A stretch of DNA of 64,000 nt. It comes from Agathobaculum sp. Marseille-P7918. Lineage in GTDB: Bacteria > Bacillota > Clostridia > Oscillospirales > Butyricicoccaceae. The stretch covers positions 62,001 through 126,000 of the forward strand of contig NZ_UYYD01000002.1 in the NCBI RefSeq assembly GCF_900625105.1, given 5' to 3'. The notes below the pieces were generated by a model. That model made no database searches, had not been told where the DNA came from, and saw only the letters and a list, made by a program, of their open reading frames with translations. Position 1 is the first letter of the stretch. Each line of letters begins with the position of its first letter. Made by a program: the position numbers and the translations under genes. Positions 1-14,757 of this stretch are shown here, one piece after another.

Positions 1-150
1 GTTCATCTGGTCGGTAAAGGTCGTGCTGCTTTTGAGCTGTTCCAGCGCGTCCGCCGGGTCGATCGCGGCCTGCTGCTTGCCGCAGCCCGCCGCCGTCACA
101 CAAAGGGCGGCAGCAAACGCTGCCGCACACCGCTTCATCTTCTGTTTCAT
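1..150 (-). CDS. lipoprotein, N-terminal part only (runs off window)
   Basis: Only the first 50 codons lie in the window. They begin with a lysine-rich n-region, an alanine-rich hydrophobic stretch and a lipobox-like TAAGC with the cysteine near residue 23, so this should be a membrane-anchored lipoprotein of the cell surface. The ATG overlaps the stop codon of the upstream SGNH lipoprotein gene (ATGA overlap at 147-150), so the two are probably translationally coupled and may work together. The visible part after the cysteine is too short to assign a family. Confidence 0.7.
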   Translation of the reverse strand, partial: MKQKMKRCAAAFAAALCVTAAGCGKQQAAIDPADALEQLKSSTTFTDQMN

Positions 151-875
151 GCCTGTTCTGCCTCCGCAATGCTTTGCTCAATGAGCGCCGCCCATTTTTC
201 CGTGTATTCCTTGGCCGGATGGATGCCGTCCGCCGCCGCGTCCGCAGGCAGACAGCCGTTTTCATCGGCCAGCGCGGAAAAAGCGTCGATATACACCGCG
301 TCATTCTCCTGCGCGACCTGCCGGATCTCCGCATTGCACGCCTGAATGGAATCGTTATTGGTGTTGTCCTCGTTCCGTGCGGACGCCTCCGCCGACACCG
401 GCGGAATCGCCGACAGGTAGATGGTCGCGTCCGGGCAATACGAACGCGCCGTTTCAATTACTTTGGTGTATTCTTCGGTAAAAGCGTCCCGGTTGGTCCA
501 GCCGAGTTCGTTTTCGCCGAAGAAAAAGACGATATGCGCAAAATCCTTGCCCTCCAGCAGGTCGATGACTGGCGTCTGCGTGTCCGCACCCTGTATCATG
601 GGCTGCTCAAACACGCTGTTCACGTTCAGGCCCACCCGATAGAAATACGACGCTTTCGGTATCGCGTCGTAGGTGTAAAAACTGTCGATATAAGAGTTGC
701 CGACCAGCGCGGTATCCTCATATGTCGTGCGCTGCGTCTGCACCTGTGTTTGTGTTTGTCCGTCCGGCGTATTTGCCAGTTCGGTCCCTTCATTTTCCTG
801 TTTCTGACTGGAGCATCCTGCCAGGCAAAATGCCACCAGAACACCGGCCACTATGGACTGTGCCCTCATTTCCAT
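147..875 (-). CDS. SGNH/GDSL-like hydrolase lipoprotein
   Basis: A 242-residue protein with a lipoprotein signal (hydrophobic segment followed by LAGCSS, cysteine at about 21), so it should sit on the outer face of the membrane. The mature part looks like an SGNH esterase fold: a GNSYIDSF block near residue 59 where GDSL is expected, a GENELGW block corresponding to the GxND region, and DGIHPAKEY near the C-terminus supplying the Asp/His pair. Substrate unknown; surface polysaccharide or cell-wall deacetylation is one possibility. A GAAGGG Shine-Dalgarno precedes the ATG. It is the first gene of a two-gene unit with the lipoprotein at 1-150. Confidence 0.7.
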   Translation of the reverse strand: MEMRAQSIVAGVLVAFCLAGCSSQKQENEGTELANTPDGQTQTQVQTQRTTYEDTALVGNSYIDSFYTYDAIPKASYFYRVGLNVNSVFEQPMIQGADTQTPVIDLLEGKDFAHIVFFFGENELGWTNRDAFTEEYTKVIETARSYCPDATIYLSAIPPVSAEASARNEDNTNNDSIQACNAEIRQVAQENDAVYIDAFSALADENGCLPADAAADGIHPAKEYTEKWAALIEQSIAEAEQA

Positions 876-1295
876 CCGTTCCCTTCATTGCTGTATTTTG
901 TGTCGAATTATCTGGCAAAGAATTATATACCACAAATGTAGAACCGAAACAACAAAGGTAACAACATTGTTGTCATACTGATACCGGAATGAAACTTACG
1001 TTTTTGTTTTCCCCACCGGGTCTGCAAATTTGCCGTTTTCCCCACCCGCTTTCTCCATTCCTGTACGACAGAAATCACACCGGTGCAGGCGCACCGCAAA
1101 GCGGTCTGCGGATGGGGAAAACCGCTGCCGCGCCGCCCGTTTTCCCGCGTCCGTTTTTGGAAAATTCCGGCGACCGATTGCAAACGCTTATCCGCATGAT
1201 TTATAATGGTCTGGCAAGGGCAAACCCACCCGGCAAGCACATATTCCACCCCGGCGCGCCTCCCCACGCCGGGCATAAAAAGGAGCTGCATCCCT
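876..1295. other. intergenic region with divergent promoter signals
   Basis: No gene seen. On the minus strand a TATAAT box (922-927) lies upstream of the SGNH lipoprotein gene, with no good -35. The plus-strand promoter of the Gfo/Idh gene is listed separately. The sequence TTTTCCCCACC occurs twice (near 1007 and 1035) and its complement TGGGGAAAA near 1113; I cannot assign a role. Confidence 0.5.
1178..1207 (+). promoter_or_regulatory. sigma-A promoter of the Gfo/Idh/MocA gene
   Basis: TTGCAA (1178-1183), an 18-base spacer, then a perfect TATAAT (1202-1207), about 90 bases before the start codon. The -35 overlaps TGCAAACGCTTATC, which partly resembles a LacI/CcpA-type half site. Confidence 0.65.
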
Positions 1296-2477
1296 ATGGA
1301 GAAAATCCGCATCGGCGTCATCGGCATTGGTGACATCAGCGACGTCTATCTGAATAACCTGAAGAAATATGACGCGGTCGAGGTCGTCGCGTGCGCCTCG
1401 CGCGGGCTGGAAAAAGCGCAGCGCAAGGCCGCGCAGCACGGCATCCCCAAGGCGTACGCCTCGGGCGCGGAGGTCATCGCCGACCCGGAGGTCGATCTGA
1501 TCCTCAACCTGACCACGCCGCAGGCGCACTACGAGTATAATCTGGCGGCGCTCCAGGCCGGCAAGCATGTCTATACCGAAAAGCCGCTTGCCATGACCTA
1601 TGCTGAGGGCAAAGAGCTGGTAGCGCTGGCAAAGGAAAAGGGGCTGCTGCTCGGCTGCGCGCCGGACACTTTTTTGGGCGGCCGGCTGCAAACCATCCGC
1701 GAGCTGATCGACAGCGGCAAACTCGGCCGCATCACGGGCGGCGGCGCCTACTTCATCGGACACGGGCACGAGTTCCACCACCCCGCGCCCGCCTTTTTCT
1801 ATCAGCCCGGCGCAGGCCCGCTGTATGACATGGGGCCGTATTACCTGACCGCGCTGCTCAGCCTGCTCGGTCCGGTGCGGCGCGTCTGTGCGATGGCTAC
1901 CAAGGCCGCCGACACCCGCACAGTCCCGTCCGGTCCCAGCAAGGGACAGGTGCTGCCCGTCGATGTGGACACCCACATCAACGCCATTCTGGAATTCGAC
2001 TGCGGTTCGGTCGTCACGCTGACGTGCAGCTTTGACGTTTGGGATTCCGAGCTGCCGCGCATGGAGCTGTACGGCACGGAAGGCACCGTGCTGATCGACG
2101 AAAAGGACCCGATCTCCGGCCCCAATCTGTTCGGCGGCGACACGCTGCTGCGCACGCCCGCGGAATACCGCTGGGCCGACCCGGAACGCCGTCCCGAACA
2201 TGTGAACACGCCATGGTCGATCGTGCCCAACCACCACCCGTTCAATTCGGTCAGCCATGCGGAAAACCCGCGCGGCATCGGTCTGGTGGACATGGTCTAC
2301 GCACTGGCGCAGCACCGCGCGCCGCGCGCGTCGGGCGATATGGCGCTGCATTCGCTGGAAGTGATGGAGTGCATCCTCCGGTCCGCGCATGAACATATTT
2401 TCTGCGAGCCGGAAACGACCTTTGAACGCCCCGCGCCCCTGCCGCTCGATTTTCCCGCAAGTGAAGCGGTAAACTGA
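1296..2477 (+). CDS. Gfo/Idh/MocA family NAD(P)-dependent oxidoreductase
   Basis: A 393-residue protein starting IRIGVIGIGDIS, the Rossmann-fold dinucleotide motif of the Gfo/Idh/MocA family. The TEKPLAMTYAE motif near residue 95 carries the conserved catalytic-site lysine (EKP). Family members oxidise or reduce sugars, sugar acids, inositols and related polyols in the cytoplasm; the substrate cannot be read from sequence. The start is the ATG at 1296, preceded by AAGGAG at 8-9 bases; in-frame sequence upstream has no ribosome site. It is transcribed alone, from its own promoter to a hairpin at 2497-2522. Confidence 0.88.
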   Translation: MEKIRIGVIGIGDISDVYLNNLKKYDAVEVVACASRGLEKAQRKAAQHGIPKAYASGAEVIADPEVDLILNLTTPQAHYEYNLAALQAGKHVYTEKPLAMTYAEGKELVALAKEKGLLLGCAPDTFLGGRLQTIRELIDSGKLGRITGGGAYFIGHGHEFHHPAPAFFYQPGAGPLYDMGPYYLTALLSLLGPVRRVCAMATKAADTRTVPSGPSKGQVLPVDVDTHINAILEFDCGSVVTLTCSFDVWDSELPRMELYGTEGTVLIDEKDPISGPNLFGGDTLLRTPAEYRWADPERRPEHVNTPWSIVPNHHPFNSVSHAENPRGIGLVDMVYALAQHRAPRASGDMALHSLEVMECILRSAHEHIFCEPETTFERPAPLPLDFPASEAVN

Positions 2478-2496
2478 AATCTTCTTTTCCATCAAA

Positions 2497-2522
2497 CAAA
2501 GGCTGCCCGCAGGCAGCCTTTG
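2497..2522. terminator. bidirectional intrinsic terminator
   Basis: A perfect 11-bp stem (CAAAGGCTGCC / GGCAGCCTTTG) with a 4-base loop between the convergent Gfo/Idh and D-2-hydroxyacid dehydrogenase genes; short T-rich flanks on both strands. Confidence 0.8.
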
Positions 2523-2547
2523 TTCGTTCGTATAGGGGTAACCCGTA

Positions 2548-3555
2548 TCAGCTTGTTTTGTCCTCGGTCTGGGGCGCCAGCCCGTTGACGATGCGAAACG
2601 CCCGCTCCCGCCGGCCGGTCAGGCAGTCGGTCAGGTTGCGGCAGCTCAGCCGCTGCAATGCCTCGATCGACCGCGCGCTGTAAAACGCGGCGTGCGGCGT
2701 CACGATCACGTTTTCCCGGCCGATGAGCGGGTTGTTCGTCAGGTCGGGTTTTTCCTCGCGCAGCACATCCAGCCCCGCCGCGCGGACCCAGCCCGCATCG
2801 AGCGCGCGCACCAGCGCCGGTTCGTCCACACTGCCGCCGCGCGAAACATTGAGGAAAATCGGGTGCTTCCGCATGCGGCGAAAGCAGTCCTCGTCAAAAA
2901 AGTTCTGGTTTTCCGCGGTCTGGTTCATGTGGTTGGTGATCACGTCCGCATTTTGCAGCAGGGTGTCCGTGTCCGTCAGGCTGACGCCCAGCAGCTGCGC
3001 CTGCTGCTCCTCCGCGTGCGGATCGACCGCCAGCACCCGCATACCGAAGGCCTGCGCGCGCCGCGCGACCGCGCGGCCGATCTTGCCGAACCCGAAAATG
3101 CCCATAACGCTGCCGGAAAGCCCCAGCGGCTGCGGCGCGGCATAGTACTGCCAGCGGTGCTCCCGGTCGATCAATCGAGTGTAGTGTTTGAGGTGGCGCT
3201 CAAGCGCCAGCAGCAGTGCCATGGTGTGATCCGCGACCTCCTGCGTGCAGTATTCGCCGATGGCGCACACCGGGATATCACGCCGCCGGGTTTCCTCCAG
3301 ATCGACGAAGTTATAACCGGTTGCATTGATCGAGATGGCCTTCAGGCGCGGCATCCGGTCGAGCGCCGCCCGGTCCAGCGGAATGAAGGCGGTGAGCAGG
3401 CCGTCCGCATCCGCCATTTCGCGGTAAAACGCTTCCGGGTCGGTATACGGATGCAGCACGATCTCCGCGTCCGGGATCTCCTGCCGCAGCAGCGCATATT
3501 CCCTTTGGATATCGCGCCCCAGCACATCCGGATAATCCGCAATGACGATTTTCAT
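2548..3555 (-). CDS. D-2-hydroxyacid dehydrogenase (NAD)
   Basis: A 335-residue cytoplasmic enzyme of the D-isomer-specific 2-hydroxyacid dehydrogenase family, interconverting 2-oxoacids and (R)-2-hydroxyacids. Visible landmarks are the NAD-binding GFGKIG at 155-160, the substrate-binding arginine in NVSRGG (R239), the acidic catalytic-dyad partner at E267/E268 and the histidine in TPHAA (H288). It is the last gene of a long minus-strand series behind an aminotransferase (12-base gap), so it probably reduces the 2-oxoacid formed upstream or one from a coupled reaction. The exact substrate is unknown; phosphoglycerate and lactate dehydrogenases belong to the same family. Confidence 0.88.
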   Translation of the reverse strand: MKIVIADYPDVLGRDIQREYALLRQEIPDAEIVLHPYTDPEAFYREMADADGLLTAFIPLDRAALDRMPRLKAISINATGYNFVDLEETRRRDIPVCAIGEYCTQEVADHTMALLLALERHLKHYTRLIDREHRWQYYAAPQPLGLSGSVMGIFGFGKIGRAVARRAQAFGMRVLAVDPHAEEQQAQLLGVSLTDTDTLLQNADVITNHMNQTAENQNFFDEDCFRRMRKHPIFLNVSRGGSVDEPALVRALDAGWVRAAGLDVLREEKPDLTNNPLIGRENVIVTPHAAFYSARSIEALQRLSCRNLTDCLTGRRERAFRIVNGLAPQTEDKTS

Positions 3556-3567
3556 GCCGATCCCTCT

Positions 3568-4851
3568 TTACGCCTCGTCCATGGCCTGCTCGAACGCCTG
3601 ATACAGGATGCCCAGCGCGGTGTCGATTTCCTCCTTTTTCACGGTCAGCGGCGCGATAAAGCGCACTACGTTCTTGTCACAGCCGCAGGCCAGCAGGAAC
3701 AGGTCGCGCTCGAGCGCCAGCGCAATGATCTTGTTGGTCAGCTCGCGGTTGGGCGATCCGTCCGGATAAACCAGCTCCATGCCGATCATCAGGCCCAGGC
3801 CGCGCACCTCGCCGATGCACGGATACTTTTCCTGCAATTTCTTCAGCTCGCCGATAAAGTATTCGCCCATGCGGCGGCCGTTGTCGATCGCGCCGTTTTC
3901 CAGCGCGTCGATCGTTGCCAGCGCCGCCGCACAGGAGACCGGATTGGCGCCGAACGTGCCGCCGTGCGCACCGGCCACCCACTTGTCCATGATCTCGCTC
4001 TTGCCGACCACGGCGGACAGCGGCAGCCCGTTGGCAATGCCCTTGGCGCAGGACATGATGTCCGGCTTGACGCCGTGGGTCTGCCAAGCGAACATGTTGC
4101 CGGTGCGGCCGAAGCCGGTCTGCACCTCGTCAAAGATCAGCATGATGCCGTACTTGTCGCACAGCTCGCGCACATACTGTACCCACTCGCGCGGCGGGAC
4201 CACATAGCCGCCCTCGCCCTGTACAGGCTCCATCAGAATGGCCGCGACCGAATACGGGTCGATCAGGTGCTTGAACATATCGTCAAACTGGGTGTAATAC
4301 TCCTTCGGGCAGGCGCCGTCCTGCATCTTATAGGGCGTGCCGAACAGCTTGGGGTATTCCGCAAAGTAGATGGACGGCACCAGGCCCTCATAGTGCTTGC
4401 GGTAGGCGGAGTTGGACGCCGTCAGTGAGGTGCACATCATGGTGCGGCCGTGGAACGAGCCTTTGAACGCGATAACGGCCGGGCGCTCGGTGGCGTATTT
4501 CGCCAACTTGACCGCGCCCTCGACCGCTTCCGCGCCGGAATTGGAGAAATAGACCTTGTAGCCGCCGCCCATCAGGCCGACCAAACGCTCGGCCAGCGCG
4601 GTTTCCACCTCATAATGAAACAGGTTGTGGCAGCAGTGCACCATTTTGTCCAGCTGGTCCTTTGCCGCCTGCACAACCGTCGGATAGTTGTGACCCAGAT
4701 TGTTGACCGCAATGCCGCTGCCGAAGTCGAGCAGCTTTCTGCCGTCATCCGTATACAGATAGCTTCCCTGCGCATGCGTGATCCCAAACGGCAGCGCGTG
4801 CAGCGCCATGGGCGGCATCACCGCCGCCGAACGTTCCTGTAATGTTGCCAT
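3568..4851 (-). CDS. class-III PLP aminotransferase, 4-aminobutyrate aminotransferase-like
   Basis: A 427-residue fold-type I enzyme. Landmarks are SNSGAEAVEGAVKLAK near 103, GSFHGRT near 131, DEVQTGFGRT with the cofactor-contacting Asp241, and SCAKGIANG with the Schiff-base lysine K270. Family members transfer omega-amino groups (GABA, ornithine, putrescine, beta-alanine) or the 2-amino group of some amino acids to 2-oxoglutarate or pyruvate. It lies 24 bases downstream of a RocB-like hydrolase in an operon that starts with an amino-acid ABC transporter, and an Fe-alcohol dehydrogenase is divergent. Together these suggest deamination to a semialdehyde that is then reduced. Substrate remains inferred. 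Confidence 0.88.
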   Translation of the reverse strand: MATLQERSAAVMPPMALHALPFGITHAQGSYLYTDDGRKLLDFGSGIAVNNLGHNYPTVVQAAKDQLDKMVHCCHNLFHYEVETALAERLVGLMGGGYKVYFSNSGAEAVEGAVKLAKYATERPAVIAFKGSFHGRTMMCTSLTASNSAYRKHYEGLVPSIYFAEYPKLFGTPYKMQDGACPKEYYTQFDDMFKHLIDPYSVAAILMEPVQGEGGYVVPPREWVQYVRELCDKYGIMLIFDEVQTGFGRTGNMFAWQTHGVKPDIMSCAKGIANGLPLSAVVGKSEIMDKWVAGAHGGTFGANPVSCAAALATIDALENGAIDNGRRMGEYFIGELKKLQEKYPCIGEVRGLGLMIGMELVYPDGSPNRELTNKIIALALERDLFLLACGCDKNVVRFIAPLTVKKEEIDTALGILYQAFEQAMDEA

Positions 4852-4875
4852 AGAAAAACCCTCCCTGCTGATGAT

Positions 4876-6519
4876 TTATGCAAAATAATACTGAATGGTC
4901 TTGAGAATGAATTTCGGCAATTGGCCGAACGAATACGGCATATAGATGCGCTCGGTCCACTTGTGGCAGTCCTTGCCCCACACACCGTAGTTGACCGCCG
5001 GGATGTTGAGCGCCTTGGCGGTTGCCAAGGGCACGGGATACAGCTTTTCATACCCCGGGAAGCACGCTTGCAGCATGGCGATCGAGTCCGCGTCGTCGTC
5101 GATCTTGAGATAGCTGGAGTCGGTCAGGCTCGGGAAAAACTGCTGCAATTTCATCTGCTCCCCGCTCTCGGCCGAAAATTCCGCGGCGATTTGTTCGACT
5201 TCGGCATACACGCGCGCCTCCTCGGGCACCTCCCGCTTGAGCGTGTTGTGCGGGCAGAACGGCGTGGCCAGAAATACCACGACGGTCGGCGTCTTGATGC
5301 CGCACAGCTCACACAGCGCCTGCACGATACGCAGCGAAGTGATGCGCATGTCGTCGCCCGCGGCGATCGAGTCGTCCGCCGTGCGGTCGATGAAGGCGTC
5401 CAAGTCGCCTTGGTACACCGCCCGCGCCCGGTCGCACAGCTCGCGGTAATCCAGCACCTGCGTCTGTTCCAGCAGGCTGGAATACCGGTTGCCGGACAGC
5501 GTGCAGTAGGTTTTGTAGCGCGCGTCCGCCTGCTGCATGACGTTGTCCAGCGCGGTGCGCGCCGCGCTTTTGAACAGCTCCATGCTTTCGGTGACCTGCC
5601 GGTTGTGCACAAAGTAATTGAAATACACGCAGGCGGTGTGCGGCGTCTGCACGTTGTAGCTCGGCTTGAGGTCCTGCATTTTGAGCACGGTCGGCGGCAG
5701 GGTGTACTCCCCTTGGTAGCCGTCGCAGAAATCCGGATTGCGGTCGATCAGACGCACCAGCTCGGCCGCGGTCAGGTCGGGCGAAAAGCCCTCGAAGCAC
5801 TGCGCCACATGGGTCTCGCGGCCGATGATGTAAAACATCGGCAGCAGCTTGCCGACCGCACCGGTGTACACATACCGTGTGGTGTCGCCGGCGTACATCG
5901 GGCAGATAAAATCGTTGTTGATCGCCAGCCGGAAGTGCAGATCGTGCTCCTGCTGGATCTTTTGCAGCAGCGGCAGCTCCTCAATGATGCCGCGGTGCAG
6001 CGTTTCCTCGACCGGGTTGAACGACAGCAGCAGATTGCCGTGCAGCTTTTCCGGCGCCTGCGCCAGATGGCACACCAGCACCAGGAAAACCGCGTCTCCG
6101 CCCTTCATGTCACACGCGCCGCGGCCGAACAGGTAGTCGCCGGACGCCAGATCGCGCCGGACCTCTTCGGGCAGCTCGGCCGACTGGAGCACTTCGGCGA
6201 GCTTTGCACAGTCAAACGCATACGGCTTATACTTCCCATAGTCGTCCACGTCCACCGTGTCGATGTGCCCATGCAGCATGATGCAGTCCCGCTCGGTGCC
6301 GTCGCCGCCCTTGAGCAGCGCCATCACGTTGTGCCGGTGCAGCGGGTCGTCCTTGAGCTCCTGCGTGATGACAAGCTCCGGATGCGCCTGAAAATACGGG
6401 ATATCCCGCAAATAGGCCTCGATCGCGTCCGCAATGGCGCGTTCGCCCGGTGTGCCGTTGACGCTGGGAATGGCGACCAGCTTTTCGGTCAGCGCTTTGA
6501 TTTCTTCCAACAGCTCCAT
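4876..6519 (-). CDS. M20-family hydrolase, RocB-like
   Basis: A 547-residue zinc hydrolase. The N-terminal half carries LHGHIDTVDVDD and GRGACDMKGGDA, the two metal-binding blocks of the M20 peptidase/deacylase family. Length and overall layout match RocB, the arginine-utilisation protein of Bacillus whose reaction is not well defined. It probably releases an amino acid or amine from a peptide or N-acyl conjugate for the aminotransferase encoded next. GGAGG sits 7 bases before the ATG. A perfect TGTATAC-G-GTATACA operator lies 24 bases upstream of the start, separating it from the binding-protein gene, so this half of the cluster may be controlled independently. Confidence 0.85.
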   Translation of the reverse strand: MELLEEIKALTEKLVAIPSVNGTPGERAIADAIEAYLRDIPYFQAHPELVITQELKDDPLHRHNVMALLKGGDGTERDCIMLHGHIDTVDVDDYGKYKPYAFDCAKLAEVLQSAELPEEVRRDLASGDYLFGRGACDMKGGDAVFLVLVCHLAQAPEKLHGNLLLSFNPVEETLHRGIIEELPLLQKIQQEHDLHFRLAINNDFICPMYAGDTTRYVYTGAVGKLLPMFYIIGRETHVAQCFEGFSPDLTAAELVRLIDRNPDFCDGYQGEYTLPPTVLKMQDLKPSYNVQTPHTACVYFNYFVHNRQVTESMELFKSAARTALDNVMQQADARYKTYCTLSGNRYSSLLEQTQVLDYRELCDRARAVYQGDLDAFIDRTADDSIAAGDDMRITSLRIVQALCELCGIKTPTVVVFLATPFCPHNTLKREVPEEARVYAEVEQIAAEFSAESGEQMKLQQFFPSLTDSSYLKIDDDADSIAMLQACFPGYEKLYPVPLATAKALNIPAVNYGVWGKDCHKWTERIYMPYSFGQLPKFILKTIQYYFA

Positions 6520-6542
6520 GGTGTTTCCTCCTCATTCCGTAT

Positions 6543-6557
6543 TGTATACGGTATACA
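6543..6557. promoter_or_regulatory. GTATAC operator, site A
   Basis: Perfect palindrome TGTATAC-G-GTATACA between the binding-protein and RocB-like genes. The same GTATAC half-site at 7-base spacing recurs at 8328-8342 and 9432-9452, and at 14 bases at 11565-11584. The likely ligand is the GntR regulator encoded at 11603-12247. Confidence 0.75.
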
Positions 6558-6570
6558 TTTTAGCCCCAAG

Positions 6571-6601
6571 GAGAACGCTTCCCGCAAGAGGAAGCGTTCT
6601 C
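6571..6601 (-). other. stable mRNA hairpin downstream of the binding-protein gene
   Basis: A perfect 12-bp stem (GAGAACGCTTCC / GGAAGCGTTCTC) with a 7-base loop, lacking a T-tract on either strand. Such structures after binding-protein genes can block 3' exonucleases and raise the level of that gene over its neighbours. Confidence 0.65.
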
Positions 6602-6615
6602 GTCGGGACGGATAC

Positions 6616-7515
6616 TCAGCTTGCGTTCTGCTCCGCGCAGATCTGGCTGTATTCCTCGATCCACTGATCGATCAGGCCGGCATCCTTGCACTCCTGAATG
6701 GTCTCGTTGATGATTTCCAAAAAGTCTTCGTTGCCCTTGGGCACTGCAACAGCGGTATCCTTGTAGCGGCGATCATCCGGCAGCTGCGCGTCGCACAGCA
6801 CCAGATCCGGGTTGGCAATCAGGTACGGCTGCGCCACCGTGGACTCAATGACAACGCCATCCGCCTTGCCGGTGGTCAGTTCGAGGACCGCCAGCGGGAT
6901 CTTTTCCAGAGAAGTGATCGAAGAGTTGGTCAGCACTTCCTTGGCGTTGGTTTCCTGCGTGGTGTTCTTCTGCACCGCAATGGTCTTGCCGTCAAAGTCG
7001 CTCAGTTCCTTATACTTATCCGCATCCTCCGCACGGACCATCAGGCGCTGTTCGGCCTGCAGGTAAACATCCGAGAAGTCCATGTTTTGCTTGCGTTCCT
7101 CGGTCGGGGACATGCCGGCCAGCATAATATCAACCTGATCGGCCGCGACCGCAGCCAGGTTCGCGGTGAAGGTGGTGTCCTCCACTTCCTTCTCCACATC
7201 GACGCCCAGCTTTTCGCTCAGCTTCTCGGCGATCTTGTCACCGAGCGCCATATCAATGCCGATGACCTTCTGGTCGGTGCTCGAGATGTCGATGAACTCA
7301 TACGGCATGTAGCCGGATGCCGTGGCCACGACCATCTTGCCGGTCTCCTTGATGCGCGTCAGGACCGGACCCAGATCGCTGGTTTCCGCGCCGGACGCCG
7401 CGGTGTCGTTGGACGCCGTGTCATTTGCCGTGTCCGAGCTGCCGCAGGCGGATACCGCCAGCGCCATGCTGGCTGCCATGAGCAGTGCCAGCGTTCGTTT
7501 TACCGTGTTTTTCAT
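6616..7515 (-). CDS. amino-acid ABC transporter, substrate-binding lipoprotein
   Basis: A 299-residue family-3 periplasmic-type solute-binding protein. A signal peptide ending in AVSACGSS gives a lipidated cysteine, then a Ser/Thr/Asp/Ala-rich linker and the amino-acid-binding core (VATASGYMPYEFID; GIDMALGDKIAEKL). The start is the ATG at 7515, preceded by GGAGG; longer in-frame upstream sequence is not coding. It captures a polar amino acid outside the cell for the permease and ATPase encoded upstream at 7592-9171. Ligand specificity is unknown, but the catabolic genes behind it point to an amino acid used as a fermentation substrate. Confidence 0.9.
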   Translation of the reverse strand: MKNTVKRTLALLMAASMALAVSACGSSDTANDTASNDTAASGAETSDLGPVLTRIKETGKMVVATASGYMPYEFIDISSTDQKVIGIDMALGDKIAEKLSEKLGVDVEKEVEDTTFTANLAAVAADQVDIMLAGMSPTEERKQNMDFSDVYLQAEQRLMVRAEDADKYKELSDFDGKTIAVQKNTTQETNAKEVLTNSSITSLEKIPLAVLELTTGKADGVVIESTVAQPYLIANPDLVLCDAQLPDDRRYKDTAVAVPKGNEDFLEIINETIQECKDAGLIDQWIEEYSQICAEQNAS

Positions 7516-7591
7516 TTCTTTTCCTCCTCCTTTGGAAACAGACGTTTCTATCATTAAATAATGATAACTATGGAATGGTTGGCGCACCGGT

Positions 7592-8299
7592 TTACCGGTC
7601 GCTCTTTTTGAAGTGACGTTCCATCGCGCGTACCCCAAGGCCGATCACGAAGGTCACCACGAAATACAACAGTGCAATGACGAGCAGCGGCAGGAACGGC
7701 CGTCCGCTGGTACCGCTGATGGTGTTATACGAGAACATCAGCTCCGCCACACCGATGACCATGACCTGCGAGGACGCCTTGACCAGGTTAGCAAATTCGT
7801 TGCCGAAGTTCGGCAGAATGTTTTTGACCGCCTGCGGCATCACGATCCGCAGCATGGAGCTGACCGAACCAAAGCCTAGCGACCGCGCTGCCTCCATCTG
7901 GCCGGGATCGACCGACTGGATGCCCGAGCGGATGATCTCACAGATATAACCGCCCGAGTTGATCGTCAGCGCGATGATGCCGTACATCGAACGCTCGCCC
8001 GCGCTGCCCAAAAAGCTGGGCACCGGCAGTTCTACGCCGATCATCGGCAGACCGTAATAGACCATCATAATCTGTACCAGCACCGGCGTGCCGCGGACAA
8101 ATTCGATCCAGATATTCGCCAGCCAGCGCAGCGGCGCGATTTTGTTCATGCGCAGCACGCACAAACCGCCGCCTACCAATATACTCAGCACGCCTGCGAT
8201 GATCGACAGGATCAATGTGTTGCGCAGGCCGCCGATAAACAATGCCGAGTAGCGGGACAGGAATTGTCCCACATCCATCAGCCATGCATTGACATCCAT
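7592..8299 (-). CDS. amino-acid ABC transporter permease (HisM/GlnP type)
   Basis: A 235-residue inner-membrane protein with about five hydrophobic segments. The EAA loop that contacts the ATPase is seen as EAARSLGFGSVSSMLRIV around residue 146. The family forms homo- or heterodimeric channels; as this operon has one permease gene, a homodimer is likely. The ATG follows GAAGGAGG. A GTATAC operator (8328-8342) lies between this gene and the ATPase gene. Confidence 0.92.
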   Translation of the reverse strand: MDVNAWLMDVGQFLSRYSALFIGGLRNTLILSIIAGVLSILVGGGLCVLRMNKIAPLRWLANIWIEFVRGTPVLVQIMMVYYGLPMIGVELPVPSFLGSAGERSMYGIIALTINSGGYICEIIRSGIQSVDPGQMEAARSLGFGSVSSMLRIVMPQAVKNILPNFGNEFANLVKASSQVMVIGVAELMFSYNTISGTSGRPFLPLLVIALLYFVVTFVIGLGVRAMERHFKKSDR

Positions 8300-8327
8300 A
8301 ATACCCCTCCTTCTTTTCCCGCAAAAT

Positions 8328-8342
8328 CGTATACTGTATACA
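8328..8342. promoter_or_regulatory. GTATAC operator, site B
   Basis: CGTATAC-T-GTATACA, one mismatch from the perfect palindrome of site A, in the 50-base gap between ATPase and permease genes. No convincing separate promoter is seen here, so it may act as a roadblock or internal control point. Confidence 0.65.
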
Positions 8343-8349
8343 ATTTTGA

Positions 8350-9171
8350 CTAAGCGAGCACCTTGCCAAGGAAGTTGATCAACCGTTCATTCTGCGGATG
8401 CTCGAAAATCTTTTCCGGCGGACCGTATTCCTGAATGATACCATCTGCCATAAAGACAACCTTGTTGGCAACCTCGCGTGCAAACCCCATCTCGTGGGTG
8501 ACGATGATCATGGTCATGCCGTCGCGCGCCAGATCCTTCATGACCTCCAGCACCTCGCCGACCATCTCCGGGTCGAGCGCCGAAGTCGGCTCGTCGAACA
8601 GCATCACATCGGGCTCCATCGCCAGCGCCCGCGCAATCGCAATGCGCTGCTTCTGGCCGCCGGACAGCTGGCTCGGATACGCGTCCCGCTTATCCGAAAG
8701 ACCGACCCGCTCGAGCAGGCGTTCCGCCAAAGCGTTGGCCTCGGGCGTTGGCATCTTGTGCAGCTTGCGCGGCCCGAGCGTGATGTTCTCCAGCACGGTC
8801 AAATGCGGAAACAGGTTAAAATGTTGGAAAACCATGCCGATTCTCTGCCGAACCCGGTTAATATCTACCGGTCCGTTCGCAATGCTGTGTCCTTCAAACT
8901 GGATGTCGCCGCCCTGGATATGTTCCAGTTGATTGATGCAGCGCAATAACGTGGATTTGCCCGAACCCGAAGGTCCGATCAGCACCGTCACGCTGCCTTT
9001 TTTCACATAGAGCTCAACCCCTTTGAGCACTTCCAGACTTTTGAAACGCTTATGCAAATCAATCACCGCAATCAGCGGATCAATTTCCGGATTGAACGCA
9101 CGTCCTGTCACGCCGTAGCTCTTGGATTGTGGGCTCTTTTCATGGCCGAATGCCAGATGACCCAACTTCAT
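8350..9171 (-). CDS. amino-acid ABC transporter ATP-binding protein
   Basis: A 273-residue cytoplasmic ATPase. Walker A is GPSGSGKST near residue 67, the ABC signature is [15 protein letters not shown] near 168, and Walker B is [14 protein letters not shown] near 188; the H-loop is [10 protein letters not shown]. It energises the permease encoded at 7592-8299. About 30 residues precede the usual family start (AVIDLHKRF). The ATG at 9171 is kept because it has AGGAGG ahead of it. It is the promoter-proximal gene of the catabolic series, behind a consensus promoter and a leader hairpin. Confidence 0.93.
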
Positions 9172-9200
9172 AGCCGCTTCCTCCTATCAGTTCCGGATAA

Positions 9201-9240
9201 AACAAAAGACGAGGTTTGTCCTTGCCGGACATCCTCGTCT
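9201..9240 (-). terminator. terminator-like hairpin in the leader of the amino-acid ABC operon
   Basis: On the minus strand, AGACGAGG and CCTCGTCT flank an inner TGTCC/GGACA stem, followed by TTTGTTTT. It lies between the consensus promoter (9256-9284) and the first gene, so it may be an attenuator. No known riboswitch consensus is recognised. Confidence 0.65.
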
Positions 9241-9255
9241 CTGCTTGATGCGCTC

Positions 9256-9284
9256 ATTATAGACCGCGCCAATTGCGTTGTCAA
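9256..9284 (-). promoter_or_regulatory. consensus sigma-A promoter of the amino-acid operon
   Basis: Perfect TTGACA (complement of 9279-9284), 17-base spacer, perfect TATAAT (complement of 9256-9261). A promoter this strong normally requires downstream control, here perhaps the adjacent hairpin. Confidence 0.88.
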
Positions 9285-9409
9285 CCGATTTTTTTGTTTT
9301 CAGCATTGTTTCCATTTTGCACAAATCAATCCGCTTCTTTTTTAGCAAAATCACACAACGCCCTTTTGTCGTGCTTCCCTTCCGCACGGAAAATTCTTGT
9401 TCTTCCCCA

Positions 9410-9452
9410 TTGACATCCCACTCTCGCAGACGTATTCTGTATACAGTATACT
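9410..9452 (+). promoter_or_regulatory. promoter with GTATAC operator, site C
   Basis: TTGACA (9410-9415), 17-base spacer, TATTCT (9433-9438). Overlapping and following the -10 are three half-sites at 7-base steps: GTATTC (9432), GTATAC (9439), GTATAC (9446). Binding there should repress the Fe-alcohol dehydrogenase gene. Confidence 0.8.
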
Positions 9453-9476
9453 ACTTGTCCTGAGGAGGTCTGTTCC

Positions 9477-10604
9477 ATGAAAAATCTTCGTTTGACCGGC
9501 GAACGCCTGATCACCGGCGCCGGCGCGCTCAACGCGCTGGGCGGGCTGGAATTCACCCGCGCGCTTCTGATCACCGGCGGCAGCTCGATGTTCCGCAATG
9601 GCACGATCCATCGCGCCGAGGCGCTGCTCTCCCCCCACGGGACGGTGGAGGTCTACCACGGCATTTCCGCCAACCCGAGCTGTGAGGATGTAGAAGATGG
9701 CCTTGCCGTCATGCGTCGCTTCGCCCCCGATCTGGTCATCGCGATCGGCGGCGGCTCGGCGATCGACGCCGCCAAAGCCATGCTGCTGTTCTATGAATGG
9801 CCTTCGCTCAACTTTGATAATGTGTTCCACTCCACGCTGCCGCAAAAGCGCAGTAAAACCACCTTTGTCGCCGTGCCGTCCACCTCGGGCACGGCCAGCG
9901 AGGTCACCCATGTCACGGTCATCACCTTCTCCGAGCAGCAGAACAAGCTGGCGATCAAAACCGAGGCGCTGCGCCCGGATATCGCCATTCTGGACGGGGA
10001 TCTGTGCATGTCCCTGCCCGCGCACATCGCCGCCGAGACCGGCATGGATGCGCTGACGCACGCGATCGAGTGCTTCACCAACCGCAGCAAGGAGACCTTC
10101 ACCGATCTGCTGGCGGCCGGCGCGATCTCGGGTATTTTGCAGTGGCTGCCGCAGTCGGTTTTGCAGGCCACGCCCGAAAGCCGCCAGAAGATGCACGAAT
10201 ATTCCTGCATGGCCGGCATGGCGTTTTCCAACGCCGGTCTGGGCATGGTGCACGGCATTTCGCATGCGTTTTCCGCCCATTACAACACCGCGCACGGCCT
10301 AGCCAACGCGGTCATCCTGCCCTATGTGCTGGACTACAACCGGCAGGACCCCTGGGTCGCCGCCGAGCTCGACCGCCTGTCCCGCATGACCGGCGGCGAC
10401 ATCGTCGCGCAGGTGCGCGCGCTGTCCGCGCAGGTCGGCATCCCGACCTGCCTGCGGGACTGCGGCATCGCGGAAGCGGATTTCCAGCGCGATGAAGCAA
10501 CGCTCATCGCCGGGTCCATGCTGGGCTCGACCGCGGTCAACCCGATCCCGATGACACCGGAAACCATTGCCCCGATCGTGCGCGCCGCTTACTACGGCAG
10601 CTGA
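9477..10604 (+). CDS. iron-containing alcohol dehydrogenase
   Basis: A 375-residue cytoplasmic enzyme of the group III metal-dependent alcohol dehydrogenases. IGGGSAIDAAKAM near residue 90 is the NAD(P)-binding motif. The metal-ligand region reads TGMDALTHAIE near 190 and GISHAFSAHYNTAHG near 260, with the expected histidines. Family members reduce aldehydes such as succinic semialdehyde (4-hydroxybutyrate dehydrogenase), butyraldehyde or lactaldehyde. Its promoter carries the same operator as the divergent aminotransferase operon, which makes a semialdehyde from that pathway a plausible substrate. GAGG lies 11-14 bases before the ATG. Confidence 0.88.
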   Translation: MKNLRLTGERLITGAGALNALGGLEFTRALLITGGSSMFRNGTIHRAEALLSPHGTVEVYHGISANPSCEDVEDGLAVMRRFAPDLVIAIGGGSAIDAAKAMLLFYEWPSLNFDNVFHSTLPQKRSKTTFVAVPSTSGTASEVTHVTVITFSEQQNKLAIKTEALRPDIAILDGDLCMSLPAHIAAETGMDALTHAIECFTNRSKETFTDLLAAGAISGILQWLPQSVLQATPESRQKMHEYSCMAGMAFSNAGLGMVHGISHAFSAHYNTAHGLANAVILPYVLDYNRQDPWVAAELDRLSRMTGGDIVAQVRALSAQVGIPTCLRDCGIAEADFQRDEATLIAGSMLGSTAVNPIPMTPETIAPIVRAAYYGS

Positions 10605-11542
10605 TGGAAACCGTACTGCTCACCCTGCATCAGGTGGTGCTCATGCTCGCCCTGCTCGCCATCGGGGCGATTTGCGCCCGGCTCGGCTGGTTTTCCGAAA
10701 CGGTCGCGCAAGGACTGAGCAAGTTTCTGCTCTGGTTTGTCACCCCGGCGCTGCTGATCGACGCATACAGCAGGCCATTTGAGGCGCAGATGGCCGTGTA
10801 TCTGCTGCTTGCAGGCGTGCTCGGCGCGCTGTTCCACCTGATGTCGGCGCTTTTGGCGCAGGGGCTCGTCCGCAAAGGCGACCGCGATCAGCGCGCGGTG
10901 GCGCGCATGAGTGTGGTGTATTCCAACTGCGGATTTATGGCGTTCCCGCTGATTTCCAGCGTGCTGGGCGACACCGGTCTGTTTTACGGCAGCGCCTTTG
11001 TCGGCGTGTTCAACCTGTCCCTGTGGACGCACGGGCAGTATCTGCTGCGCGGCCGCGAGGGGCTGAGTCCGCGCCGCGCGCTGTGCAATGCGGGCGTGCT
11101 CGGCACACTGACCGGCCTGCTGCTGTATCTTTCGCAGCTGCCGCTGCCGTCCATTGTTGCGGACACCATTTCGTCGCTGGCCTCGCTCAACACGCCGCTG
11201 GCCATGCTGGTCATCGGGTCGTTTCTGGCCCATTGCCGGCTGCACACACTGCTGCGGCAGGACGTGATCTATCCCGCCCTGCTGCGCATGCTGGTGTGCC
11301 CGCTCTGCCTGCTCGGGCTGCTGTACCTCATCCGCGTGCCGCACTGGTGCGCGGCCGGCGCGCAACTCGGACTGGTGACCATGCTGTGCGCAAGCTGCCC
11401 TTCCGCCGCGTCCAGCGTGCTGATGACCGCGTCGCTCGGCATGGATTCCGGATACGGGTCGCGCATCATCCTGCTGACCAGTCTGCTGTCGGTCGCCGTG
11501 ATCCCCGCGCTGTCGCTTGCCACCACTCTGGTGCTGGCATGA
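10604..11542 (+). CDS. AEC (auxin efflux carrier) family transporter
   Basis: A 312-residue membrane protein with about ten hydrophobic segments arranged as two halves, typical of AEC/bile-acid-fold carriers that move small carboxylates such as malate, lactate or other organic acids. The ATG overlaps the stop of the alcohol dehydrogenase gene (TGATG), so the two are translationally coupled. In this context it may export the hydroxyacid end product or import a carboxylate substrate; direction cannot be deduced. Confidence 0.85.
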   Translation: METVLLTLHQVVLMLALLAIGAICARLGWFSETVAQGLSKFLLWFVTPALLIDAYSRPFEAQMAVYLLLAGVLGALFHLMSALLAQGLVRKGDRDQRAVARMSVVYSNCGFMAFPLISSVLGDTGLFYGSAFVGVFNLSLWTHGQYLLRGREGLSPRRALCNAGVLGTLTGLLLYLSQLPLPSIVADTISSLASLNTPLAMLVIGSFLAHCRLHTLLRQDVIYPALLRMLVCPLCLLGLLYLIRVPHWCAAGAQLGLVTMLCASCPSAASSVLMTASLGMDSGYGSRIILLTSLLSVAVIPALSLATTLVLA

Positions 11543-11584
11543 TTGACAACCCACAGGCAAAACGGTATACTGAATGCAGTATAC
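11543..11584 (+). promoter_or_regulatory. autoregulated promoter of the GntR gene, operator site D
   Basis: TTGACA (11543-11548), 17-base spacer, TATACT (11566-11571). The -10 lies inside GTATAC (11565) and a second GTATAC follows at 11579, with a degenerate GAATGC half-site exactly midway (11572), again a 7-base period. This points to autorepression. Confidence 0.8.
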
Positions 11585-11602
11585 TTTTGGAGGACCATCG
11601 TC

Positions 11603-12247
11603 TTGAAAAATCTGAAAAAAGAGCCTTCGCTCACTGATAAAGCCTATGCCGCCATCAAGGAGGCCATCATTTCCAACGAGCTTGCGCCCGGCACCATGCT
11701 GGCGGAAGAAAGCCTTGCCGCGCAGCTCGGCATCAGCCGCACCCCCATCCGGGCGGCCTTGCAGCGGCTGGTGCTGGAAAAGATCGTGGTATCCTCGGGC
11801 AAAAAGCTGGTCGTCGCCGAAGTGACGGCGCAGGATGTGCGCGATATCGACATCATCCGCATCCATCTCGAGCCGCTTTCCATCCAGCTCATCGCGCAGC
11901 GCGGCGGACTGACCGCGCGGCAGCTGTCCCAGCTGCATGGCTACAACGAGCGGCAGCGCGAAGCGGCAGAAACCGGGGACAGCCTGTCCTTTCTGGAACA
12001 GGATACGCTGTTCCATGTGATGTTGGCGCAGCTGTCCGGCAACCATTTTCTATATGATCTGGTCAGCCGGAGCAATCTGACCATCCAGCGATTCCACACC
12101 CTGACCGGCACCCTGTCGCAGCACGCGCCGGTGGCGGTGGAAGAGCACAAAGCCATTCTGGACGCGCTCGAGCGCAGGGACTATCCGCAGGCGGAAGCCG
12201 CGCTGCGCTCGCATCTGGAAAAGGTGGACAGCCGTATGCTGCGCTGA
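11603..12247 (+). CDS. GntR family regulator (FCD-type effector domain)
   Basis: A 214-residue DNA-binding regulator. The N-terminal winged helix shows KAYAAIKEAII and AAQLGISRTPIRAALQRL (about residues 10-55); the C-terminal helical part, with DIIRIHLEPLS and late histidines, resembles the FCD ligand/metal-binding domain. The start is a TTG at 11603 with GGAGG 9 bases upstream; no ATG is available in frame nearby. It almost certainly binds the GTATAC sites at 6543, 8328, 9432 and 11565, controlling both operons and itself. The effector is presumably the transported amino acid or a catabolite. Confidence 0.88.
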   Translation: MKNLKKEPSLTDKAYAAIKEAIISNELAPGTMLAEESLAAQLGISRTPIRAALQRLVLEKIVVSSGKKLVVAEVTAQDVRDIDIIRIHLEPLSIQLIAQRGGLTARQLSQLHGYNERQREAAETGDSLSFLEQDTLFHVMLAQLSGNHFLYDLVSRSNLTIQRFHTLTGTLSQHAPVAVEEHKAILDALERRDYPQAEAALRSHLEKVDSRMLR

Positions 12248-12275
12248 CAGTTTGCCAACCGATCTCTCCGACAAC

Positions 12276-12316
12276 AAAACCCCGGATACCGCTTTTCCGC
12301 GGCATCCGGGGTTTTT
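12276..12316. terminator. bidirectional intrinsic terminator
   Basis: AAAACCCCGGAT paired with ATCCGGGGTTTTT, with an inner CCGC/GCGG stem, between the convergent GntR and Rrf2 genes. T-tracts are present on both strands. Confidence 0.85.
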
Positions 12317-12347
12317 CTATGCGTTCCAACGGGGATTCGGCCGGTTA

Positions 12348-12788
12348 TCACTCCGGCGCCTGCACCCGCTTGTGAAAATCATCCAGCATGGACTGCAAGG
12401 TGATGCCCTGCATGGTCTGCTTGACCGCGTCCTCAATCTGATGATACGGGGTTTGCAGCACCTGCCGGATATTCTGCGCCACCGGGCATTTGCGCCCCTG
12501 ACAGTTGTGAATCCCAATCAGGGCGGACAGGCCGTCCGGTTCGAGCGCGCTGTAAATTTGATACAGGGTGATCTGCGCCGGGTCGGCGCACAGCGCCGCG
12601 CCGCCGGTGCCCCGCGCGACCGAAATCAGTCCGGCCTTTTTGAGCTTTCCCATGATGTTCCGGATGACCACGGGATTGCATCCCGTGCTTTGCGCGAGCA
12701 AATCGCTTGTCACTTTGGCAATGCCCTTGGCTTCATGGATGAATATCAAACAATGCACGGCGATCGAGCATTTGGTGCTGATCTGCAT
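12348..12788 (-). CDS. Rrf2 family transcriptional regulator
   Basis: A 146-residue winged-helix regulator starting MQISTKCSIAVHCL. The recognition region is NPVVIRNIMGKLKKAGL, followed by a wing with GTGGAAL. Cysteines in HNCQGRKCPVAQNI (about 95-107) resemble the Fe-S or redox-sensing cysteine loop of IscR/NsrR/RsrR-type members, though only two cysteines are clustered here. The start at 12788 is chosen because the family fold begins there; the upstream in-frame stretch crosses the promoter region. It is divergent from a quinone-oxidoreductase/flavodoxin-ferredoxin operon whose promoter has two matching palindromes, so a redox or electrophile sensor is likely. Confidence 0.85.
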   Translation of the reverse strand: MQISTKCSIAVHCLIFIHEAKGIAKVTSDLLAQSTGCNPVVIRNIMGKLKKAGLISVARGTGGAALCADPAQITLYQIYSALEPDGLSALIGIHNCQGRKCPVAQNIRQVLQTPYHQIEDAVKQTMQGITLQSMLDDFHKRVQAPE

Positions 12789-12826
12789 GATGGGATCCCC
12801 TCTTTCCGTTTGGCTGACACGCCGGA

Positions 12827-12888
12827 TGTAACTATTGACATTACAACAAGCGCGTGGTATAGTAGCAGATGTAATTTCATCTGTTACA
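12827..12888 (+). promoter_or_regulatory. promoter with two TGTAA-N9-TTACA operators
   Basis: TTGACA (12835-12840), 17-base spacer, TATAGT (12858-12863). One operator, TGTAA-N9-TTACA (12827-12845), covers the -35; an identical-format copy (12870-12888) lies over the transcription start. They are 43 bases apart, about four helical turns. Probable Rrf2 sites. Confidence 0.78.
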
Positions 12889-12975
12889 ACACATTGTATC
12901 GGGTTTTCCGATAAAATGCAAGCGTCCGGCACGAAAACGGCCGGCACATCCCGATGAAACAGAAAGGACCGGCAC

Positions 12976-13977
12976 ATGAAAGCAGTACAGATCGACCAAT
13001 ATACCAAAGAGATCCGCACCCGTCTTTGCGACCTTCCCCTGCCGGAGATCGCAGCAGACGAAGTGCTGGTAAAAGTCAAAGCAGCCGCGGTCAACCCGCT
13101 CGAGCTGCTGATCCTCTCGGGCAGCGTCCGGCTGATCCAAAACTACACCATGCCGCTGACGCTGGGCAACGAATGTGCCGGCATCGTGGAACAGGTTGGC
13201 CGCCATGTGACCGCCTTCCAGCCGGGCGACCGGGTTTACACCCGCCTGCCGCAGCAAAAAATCGGCGCGTTCGCGGAATATGTCGCGGTCCCGCAATCCG
13301 CGCTCGCCCGCATGCCCGCGGAGTATGACTTCGCCACCGCCGCCGCGATCCCGCTGACCGGACTGACCGCCTATCAGGCCATCACGGAAGAACTTGAGGC
13401 CCAGCCGGGGCAAACCCTGCTCATCACCGGCGCATCGGGCAGCTTCGGCCAGATGGCCGTGCCCATCGCCAAAGCGTGCGGACTGCGGGTTTTCGTGACC
13501 GGCAACCACCGCGCGCGCGACCAGTTTCTCGCCATGGGGGTGGAGCGATACATCGACTACCGGCAGGAAAACTACTGGGAGGTGCTGTCCGGGGTGGACC
13601 ATGTGATCGATACCCTCGGCGCCGCAGAATTCGACCATGCGCTGCATGTGCTCAAACCCGGCGGGCGGCTGGTGAGCCTCAAGGCCGTGCCGAACAAGGC
13701 GTTTGCCGTCCGGCAGCATGCTGCGCCGTGGAAAAAAGCGCTGTTCACCCTTGCCGGCGCCAAATATGACGCCGCCGCCCGCAAGCAGGGCAAGGAATAC
13801 CGTTTTCTGTTTGTCCATGCCGACGGTGCGCAGCTGAAAAAAATCACGAAAATCGTCGAGCAAACCCAAATCAGGCCCGCCGTTGACCCGCATGTCTTTT
13901 CTCTGGCACGGGCCGACGACGCGCTGCGGCTTGTCGCGCAGGGCCGCCTGAGCGGCAAGGTGCTCATTCAAATCTGA
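12976..13977 (+). CDS. MDR-family NADPH:quinone oxidoreductase-like protein
   Basis: A 333-residue medium-chain reductase of the zinc-free quinone oxidoreductase branch. The N-terminal GroES-like domain shows VNPLELLILSG and LGNECAGIVEQVG, without zinc-binding cysteines. The Rossmann domain shows ITGASGSFGQMAVPIAKA near 150. Such enzymes reduce quinones, enones or other electrophiles with NADPH in the cytoplasm. It is the first gene behind an Rrf2-regulated promoter, followed after 15 bases by a flavodoxin/ferredoxin fusion, suggesting a detoxification or redox-balance role. Confidence 0.85.
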   Translation: MKAVQIDQYTKEIRTRLCDLPLPEIAADEVLVKVKAAAVNPLELLILSGSVRLIQNYTMPLTLGNECAGIVEQVGRHVTAFQPGDRVYTRLPQQKIGAFAEYVAVPQSALARMPAEYDFATAAAIPLTGLTAYQAITEELEAQPGQTLLITGASGSFGQMAVPIAKACGLRVFVTGNHRARDQFLAMGVERYIDYRQENYWEVLSGVDHVIDTLGAAEFDHALHVLKPGGRLVSLKAVPNKAFAVRQHAAPWKKALFTLAGAKYDAAARKQGKEYRFLFVHADGAQLKKITKIVEQTQIRPAVDPHVFSLARADDALRLVAQGRLSGKVLIQI

Positions 13978-13992
13978 CAGGAGGAAGCGTAC

Positions 13993-14757
13993 ATGAAACT
14001 TTATGAGGTTGTCTTCAGCCCGACGGGCGGCACCCAAAAGGTGGCCGACCGGCTGGCCCAATCCTTGTCCGGGGAAATCGTCCCCGTTGACCTGACCGAC
14101 CATACGCTGGCATTTGCCAGTATCGCGCTGACGCCAGACGATGTGGCCGTCCTTGCCGTGCCTTCCTATGGCGGCCGGGTGCCGGCCCCCGTGGTCGAGC
14201 GGCTGGCTGCGCTGCACGGCAACGGCGCCCGCGCGGTGCTGGTCTGCGTCTACGGCAACCGCGCCTATGAGGACACACTGGCCGAATTGCAGGATACCGC
14301 CAAGCAAGCCGGGTTCCGACCGATCGCGGCGGTGGCCGCAGTGGCCGAACATTCCATCGCCCGGCAGTTTGCCGCCGGCCGTCCGGATGCACAGGACGCG
14401 CAGCAGCTTGCAGCTTTCGCCGCACAGACCCGCGGCAAACTTACCGCCGGCTCGGCCGCGGAGCCGCAGATTCCCGGCAACCGCCCCTATCAAAAGGCGG
14501 GCGGCGCCGGCATGGTGCCCAAGCCGACCAAAGCATGCGTCCGCTGCGGTGCGTGCGCCAAAACCTGCCCCGTGCAGGCCATTTCTGCGGACGACCCCAA
14601 AAAAGTAAACGCCAAAGCCTGCATTTCCTGCATGCGCTGCGTCTCCATCTGCCCGCACGACGCCCGCAAGGTCAATCCGCTGCTGCTGTCCGCCGCCGGA
14701 TTGATGCTGAAAAAGGTCTGCGCACAGCGCAAGGACAACGAGCTGTTCCTCGCCTGA
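13993..14757 (+). CDS. EFR1-type flavodoxin-ferredoxin fusion
   Basis: A 254-residue protein. The N-terminal half is flavodoxin-like: FSPTGGTQKVADRL near residue 9 matches the FMN phosphate loop, and VPSYGGRVPAP near 54 a second FMN contact. The C-terminus holds two [4Fe-4S] motifs, CVRCGACAKTCP near 179 and CISCMRCVSICP near 210. This is the EFR1 architecture, a small electron carrier widespread in anaerobes. It probably passes electrons between an oxidoreductase and a low-potential acceptor. It shares an operon and AGGAGG-led translation with the MDR reductase. Confidence 0.9.
   Translation: MKLYEVVFSPTGGTQKVADRLAQSLSGEIVPVDLTDHTLAFASIALTPDDVAVLAVPSYGGRVPAPVVERLAALHGNGARAVLVCVYGNRAYEDTLAELQDTAKQAGFRPIAAVAAVAEHSIARQFAAGRPDAQDAQQLAAFAAQTRGKLTAGSAAEPQIPGNRPYQKAGGAGMVPKPTKACVRCGACAKTCPVQAISADDPKKVNAKACISCMRCVSICPHDARKVNPLLLSAAGLMLKKVCAQRKDNELFLA

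Follow-up and report, generated by a model that had tools for sequence, protein, structure and literature searches.

Doubled GTATAC motif as a probable operator of the linked GntR/FCD regulator in a Butyricicoccaceae gene cluster

We analyzed 64,000 nt of Agathobaculum sp. Marseille-P7918 (GCF_900625105.1, contig NZ_UYYD01000002.1, positions 62,001–126,000; hereafter the window), in which a doubled hexamer, GTATAC-N-GTATAC, recurs within a nine-gene cluster. Six of the genes form a minus-strand ABC/catabolic operon, divergent from a plus-strand side that encodes an iron-containing alcohol dehydrogenase (Fe-ADH), an auxin efflux carrier (AEC)-type transporter and a GntR-type regulator with an FCD domain. 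Genes were identified with Pfam and NCBIfam/TIGR profiles and a PDB search; the cluster looks like one for the uptake and catabolism of an amino-acid-like compound. We propose that the doublet is probably the operator of the linked regulator, which would act as a repressor at four sites, named A to D: by blocking initiation at C and D and as a roadblock at A and B, with a ligand releasing it. Conservation was assessed in 87 family genomes. Counts for full loci refer to five complete loci (the window and four relatives), and counts of six add G011, a truncated contig with the rocB end of the cluster and site A.

The gntR product matches PF00392 (7.6e-17) and PF07729 (1.2e-23), both above the gathering threshold, which gives a winged helix and an FCD domain. 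Its start is taken as the TTG at 11603, which follows GGAGG; a longer listed frame would start at 11543, within the −35 box. In an AF2 model (pLDDT 87.6), the fold is nearest McbR and Atu1419. The recognition residues known from Atu1419 are present as E35, R46, T47 and R50, and the metal ligands of the FCD domain (D134, H138, H182 and H204), invariant in five orthologs, align with N137, H141, H192 and H214 of that protein. The first helix starts at about residue 10, so there is no N-terminal extension of about 32 residues of the NanR type.

Three exact doublets occur in the window, at A, B and C, and the whole 2.83-Mb genome holds no others. An earlier interpretation made from the sequence by itself (the sequence-only reading) had listed the sites, and all of its coordinates are correct. 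At up to two mismatches the window contains six doublets where 0.22 are expected, a number reached in 0 of 100 shuffles, and the hexamer GTATAC occurs 15 times (2.56 expected). A chance origin of the window doublets is excluded. Elsewhere in the genome, doublets with one mismatch are found at four places, compared with one for the reversed-pattern control on which the genome-wide statistics are based; a wider regulon in the same genome was rejected, all four places being inside open frames of 113–335 codons. Matches of the D type outside the cluster number 15 at up to three mismatches (control 9), all with at least two mismatches and none convincing. Single TTGTATACAA sites occur four times in the genome (control three), none of them in the cluster.

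A weight matrix trained on 13 sites of the relatives, with the window excluded (consensus TATTGTATACAGTATACAATA), ranks B, A, C, C′, D and D′ as the top six matches in the window, with scores from 31.7 to 9.5; the next best scores 4.7. At A to D, all five loci have the short unit in at least two copies at a fixed 7-bp pitch. All sites share a palindromic GT-N2/3-AC core, here GTATAC (GT-N2-AC), of which some units at C and D are degenerate versions. The sequence-only reading had described a tandem 7-base array that would allow graded or cooperative occupancy. The pitch is real, but only D has a clear third unit (on average 4.4 of 6 matches over the five loci; background mean 1.3, maximum 2.4). 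The weak third unit at C coincides with the −10 box and is inseparable from it, and at A and B no third unit rises above background at multiples of 7 in the five loci, leaving plain doublets. The 7-base period is thus the pitch of two units, or of three at the predicted autoregulatory promoter. Graded or cooperative occupancy does not follow from doublets such as A and B, and the 7-bp geometry would equally suit a single dimer having two overlapping registers; the doublet makes the sharing of 13 bp between FCD dimers a point of interest.

A GntR ortholog, 62–65% identical, occurs in four other family genomes: Butyricicoccus sp. Marseille-Q5471, Butyricicoccus pullicaecorum ET57 and two metagenome-assembled genomes. 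The nine genes and their arrangement are shared by all four, as are the positions of all four operators; in each, two or three operators are exact and the others have one mismatch. At least two exact doublets are found in 5 of the 87 family genomes, and these five are the very genomes that carry this GntR. The probability of this coincidence is 1 in C(87,5), about 3e-8, if genomes are independent, and kinship lowers its real weight. Genomes with distant rocB relatives only and no such GntR have no exact doublet, and further one-mismatch doublets in the ortholog genomes do not exceed the reversed-pattern control. The doublet is therefore not scattered randomly over this genome and its relatives: multiple exact doublets are confined to the cluster and track the GntR ortholog. 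The claim that one operator unites two divergent operons and gntR thereby appears sound, and it is most likely the linked GntR that binds it.

The same data bear on whether the pattern could be repetition of TATAC-like −10 boxes, by chance or driven by promoters, with no common regulator. A −10 box such as TATACT does supply one motif unit at D. However, the best conserved copies are those at A and B, which have no conserved promoter, and the genome-wide confinement and the co-occurrence with GntR contradict this explanation, which we regard as barely credible.

Beyond the family, a sampled order-wide search gave no GntR ortholog, and an order-wide scan gave no genome with more than one flanked doublet. 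Of six single-doublet loci that we inspected, three fall within long open frames and a fourth is the GntR locus of G434, a genome from another family of the order. The FCD GntR of G434 is 29% identical to that of the window, and two GTATAC arrays with a 7-bp period lie 110 bp apart at its own and a divergent promoter (L092:1503–1632), so this operator grammar is not unique to the cluster. A 7-bp operator as a general trait of paralogous FCD GntRs was rejected: 20 loci (L010–L029, 30–37% identity) gave four matches, as many as the control. Isolated single doublets of G017 and G064 fall in open frames; in G038 and G050, which lack a GntR ortholog, a doublet occupies a promoter-like place.

At C, the −10 box ends exactly where the doublet begins (register offset −6 in all five loci), so that the predicted start site falls within the doublet. 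At D, the −10 box is inside the array, in its middle unit in the four relatives and in its first unit in the window. All promoters at C and D score 10 or more of 12, as do 0.7% of random windows, and the overlap with −10 boxes claimed for these two sites is real (Table 1). A repressor bound at C and D would cover the −10 box, the start site or both, and so block initiation of the Fe-ADH/AEC operon and of gntR, and occupancy of D would result in negative autoregulation. Repression of initiation at both sites is likely, and C and D are best read as ordinary repression sites, with autoregulation of gntR.

A rival reading gives the repeat a role in RNA, as 5′-leader hairpins before ribosome-binding sites, instead of as a DNA operator. 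A Shine-Dalgarno sequence follows every site, and D of the window folds stably (−10.2 kcal/mol). Against this, the relatives do not preserve the 8-bp arms of D, C of the window folds no better than shuffles (z = −0.96), and the predicted start lies inside the repeat at C and D, so the repeat would be only partly transcribed. We rejected an RNA element on these three grounds as very improbable.

Table 1. Genes, promoters, operator sites and hairpins of the cluster (window coordinates)
Feature	Position	Strand	Evidence or remark
D-2-hydroxyacid dehydrogenase, last gene of ABC/catabolic operon	2548..3555	-	PF02826/PF00389; same position in five complete loci and G011
Class-III aminotransferase (GABA-transaminase-like)	3568..4851	-	PF00202; PRK08117 over cut-off
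M20-family deacylase, here called rocB	4876..6519	-	PF01546
Site A, GTATACGGTATAC, inside operon between SBP and rocB, 24 bp before rocB start	6544..6556	.	Exact doublet
Strong hairpin between SBP gene and site A, without U-run	6560..6615	-	-34.5 kcal/mol, z = -5.7
Amino-acid ABC transporter substrate-binding protein (SBP)	6616..7515	-	PF00497
Amino-acid ABC transporter permease	7592..8299	-	PF00528; TIGR01726 over cut-off
Site B, GTATACTGTATAC, inside operon between ATPase and permease, 29 bp before permease start	8329..8341	.	Exact doublet
Amino-acid ABC transporter ATPase, first gene of operon	8350..9171	-	PF00005; GlnQ-like
Leader hairpin with U-run, terminator-like, just downstream of ABC promoter	9205..9240	-	Kept in 5/5 loci; -24.8 kcal/mol, z = -5.5
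ABC operon promoter, TTGACA-17-TATAAT (12/12)	9256..9284	-	Kept in 5/5 loci
Fe-ADH operon promoter, TTGACA-17-TATTCT	9410..9438	+	TTGACA-17-TANNNT in 5/5 loci
Site C, GTATTC-T-GTATAC-A-GTATAC, with degenerate GTATTC at 9432	9432..9451	.	Doublet 9439-9451
Iron-containing alcohol dehydrogenase (Fe-ADH)	9477..10604	+	PF00465/PF25137
AEC-family (auxin efflux carrier type) transporter	10604..11542	+	PF03547
gntR promoter, TTGACA-17-TATACT	11543..11571	+	TTGACN-17/18-TATACT in 5/5 loci
Site D, GTATAC-T-GAATGC-A-GTATAC, 20 bp, over -10 box and start of gntR	11565..11584	.	Triplet spacing in 5/5 loci
gntR, GntR/FCD (VanR-type) regulator	11603..12247	+	PF00392 and PF07729

The sequence-only reading had remarked on the unusual position of B inside an operon. 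This position is real and conserved, and A is likewise internal, so there are two such sites. Site A is at the same position in 6/6 loci (five exact, one with a single mismatch), and its 12 fixed core bases are 97% identical between loci, compared with 0.37–0.42 for the flanks. The doublet at B is exact in 5/5 loci, with 100% identity at the 12 fixed core bases (flanks 0.32–0.40) and variation at the centre base alone. Promoter scores at A and B are 6–9 of 12 with no common register over the loci; about 9% of random windows score at least 8. No conserved −35/−10 pair was found at A or B in the five loci, although a weak or atypical promoter could escape this scoring. Given a promoter register at C and D and none at A and B, we consider C and D to be promoter operators and A and B to be operators without a recognizable promoter.

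From the consensus promoter of the ABC operon, B is about 0.9 kb and A about 2.7 kb downstream, in an order kept in the five loci. They are thus placed where a roadblock would act, assuming that one transcript spans the operon. A repressor at B would obstruct elongating RNA polymerase before the permease and SBP genes, and one at A before rocB and the aminotransferase and dehydrogenase genes. We lean, by a modest degree, towards such an elongation roadblock at A and B, and consider it more likely than internal promoters. A carboxylate- or amino-acid-type small ligand in the FCD domain would release the repressor from all four sites.

Under internal promoters, A and B would be operators of weak promoters, and three units (ATPase; permease-SBP; rocB-aminotransferase-dehydrogenase) would each be repressed at initiation. 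Each of the four sites closely precedes a start codon, and the strong hairpin that separates SBP from rocB means that rocB may need its own promoter. There is, however, no conserved −35/−10 pair or fixed register at A and B, in contrast to the pair kept at C and D in all five loci, and we judge internal promoters unlikely.

Several observations weigh against our interpretation of the four sites. The roadblock is proposed because no promoter was recognized at A and B, so a weak internal promoter is possible there, and B does have TTGACC-18-TANNNT (9/12) in two of the five loci. In the relatives, the −10 box immediately precedes the C doublet and lies within the D array, so these sequences overlap promoter parts and are partly under promoter constraint. 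Finally, the ortholog loci all belong to a single bacterial family, which makes their conservation less than fully independent.

A tetrameric repressor might instead bridge the four sites, with A and B as auxiliary operators that form loops of 1.1–2.9 kb with C and silence the ABC promoter too. This promoter lies about 150 bp from C and carries no doublet in any of the five loci. DNA loops longer than 1 kb are usually weak in vivo, and the site spacings (about 1.1, 1.8 and 2.1 kb) are no more than gene lengths. Among structural relatives bound to DNA, the nearest is Atu1419, a tetramer that loops DNA between two such palindromes (PMC7797058). On balance, looping seems rather improbable.

A more specific version of the roadblock proposal is tentative. 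A VanR-type FCD repressor without the NanR extension would place two dimers on each 13-bp pair of self-palindromic hexamers, and the six-gene operon would be controlled mainly from inside by two staged roadblocks, its consensus promoter and leader terminator answering another signal; the same 7-bp grammar is seen again in G434. Operators at the same two intra-operon places in five genomes, without a recognizable promoter, make a good natural case for the study of roadblocks. An uncharacterized catabolic cluster of gut Clostridia gains a testable operator, regulator and regulon.

The operator itself is ordinary in kind; the unusual part is the conserved intra-operon sites together with an unusually strict doublet. 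The Bacillus subtilis GntR operator is ATACTTGTATACAAGTAT, which has the same GTATAC core of a FadR-subfamily repressor and differs in being a single palindrome. An additional box 7–12 nt from the site centre has been described in 13 FadR-type ortholog groups (PMC4494728). These sites resemble those of the window in their GT-N2-AC core and additional box, but the extra box is weaker, with about half the score, whereas both copies at A and B are about equally conserved. Since extra boxes near FadR-type sites were already known, the doublet is a variant and not a new kind, and the contrast that had been drawn with the short palindromes usually bound by GntR regulators has to be softened.

Atu1419, a VanR-type FCD GntR of Agrobacterium fabrum, binds ATGTATACAT, a 10-bp palindrome, as a dimer; its sites overlap −10 boxes and it is autoregulated (PMC7797058). 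The window GntR is like it in FCD fold, in the Arg/Thr/Arg and Glu of the recognition helix and in metal ligands, and the operators are alike in GTATAC core palindrome, −10 overlap and autoregulation, the last predicted here. Atu1419 differs in using single ATGTATACAT palindromes, whereas the hexamer in the window is doubled at a 7-bp pitch and two sites lie deep in an operon. As to the tetrameric state of Atu1419, the window GntR shows a fold match only.

NanR of E. coli recognizes GGTATA, an AT-rich short unit present in two or three copies, of which it needs at least two; several dimers bind next to one another, and cooperativity depends on a 32-residue N-terminal extension (PMC8012715). 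Both NanR and the window GntR are FCD GntRs associated with a short AT-rich unit in tandem, but the NanR repeats are direct and not self-palindromic, and its extension is missing in the window GntR. In Corynebacterium glutamicum, the FadR-type GntR AnsR has a site downstream of the start site, for which a roadblock was proposed (PMC9145765). Sites B and A are likewise past the start site, but lie well inside the operon (about 0.9 and 2.7 kb) and between genes.

Among the other genes of the cluster, the aminotransferase has 4-aminobutyrate aminotransferases as its top PDB matches. No relative of the deacylase was found in the PDB search; rocB orthologs are 77–84% identical in five other family genomes. 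Hairpin-forming sequence between SBP and site A is present in 6/6 loci and may stabilize the transporter mRNA or act as a leaky terminator. The leader of the ABC operon, with its terminator-like hairpin, is a possible attenuator. An Rfam scan of window positions 1–14000, which include this leader, gave no match. The leader (9195–9250, minus strand) contains CATCAACCAGAGACAAGGACGTCC, is conserved in 5/5 loci and has only one close copy in the genome of the window.

Two doublets in other loci lie at promoter-like places. At L054:4743–4755, a doublet on ATGACA-17-TATACT lies 80 bp upstream of a Gfo/Idh oxidoreductase gene whose product shares 82% identity with that of window gene 1287–2477; the window has no site there, and the L054 genome has no close GntR ortholog. 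At L053:4722–4734, in another genus of the family, a doublet on TTGACA-17-TATACT lies upstream of an SDR dehydrogenase/sugar-kinase-like pair. The cluster as a whole (2548–12247) is patchy, being present in 6 of the 87 family genomes and in two genera with protein identity of about 62–87%, which suggests horizontal spread or repeated loss.

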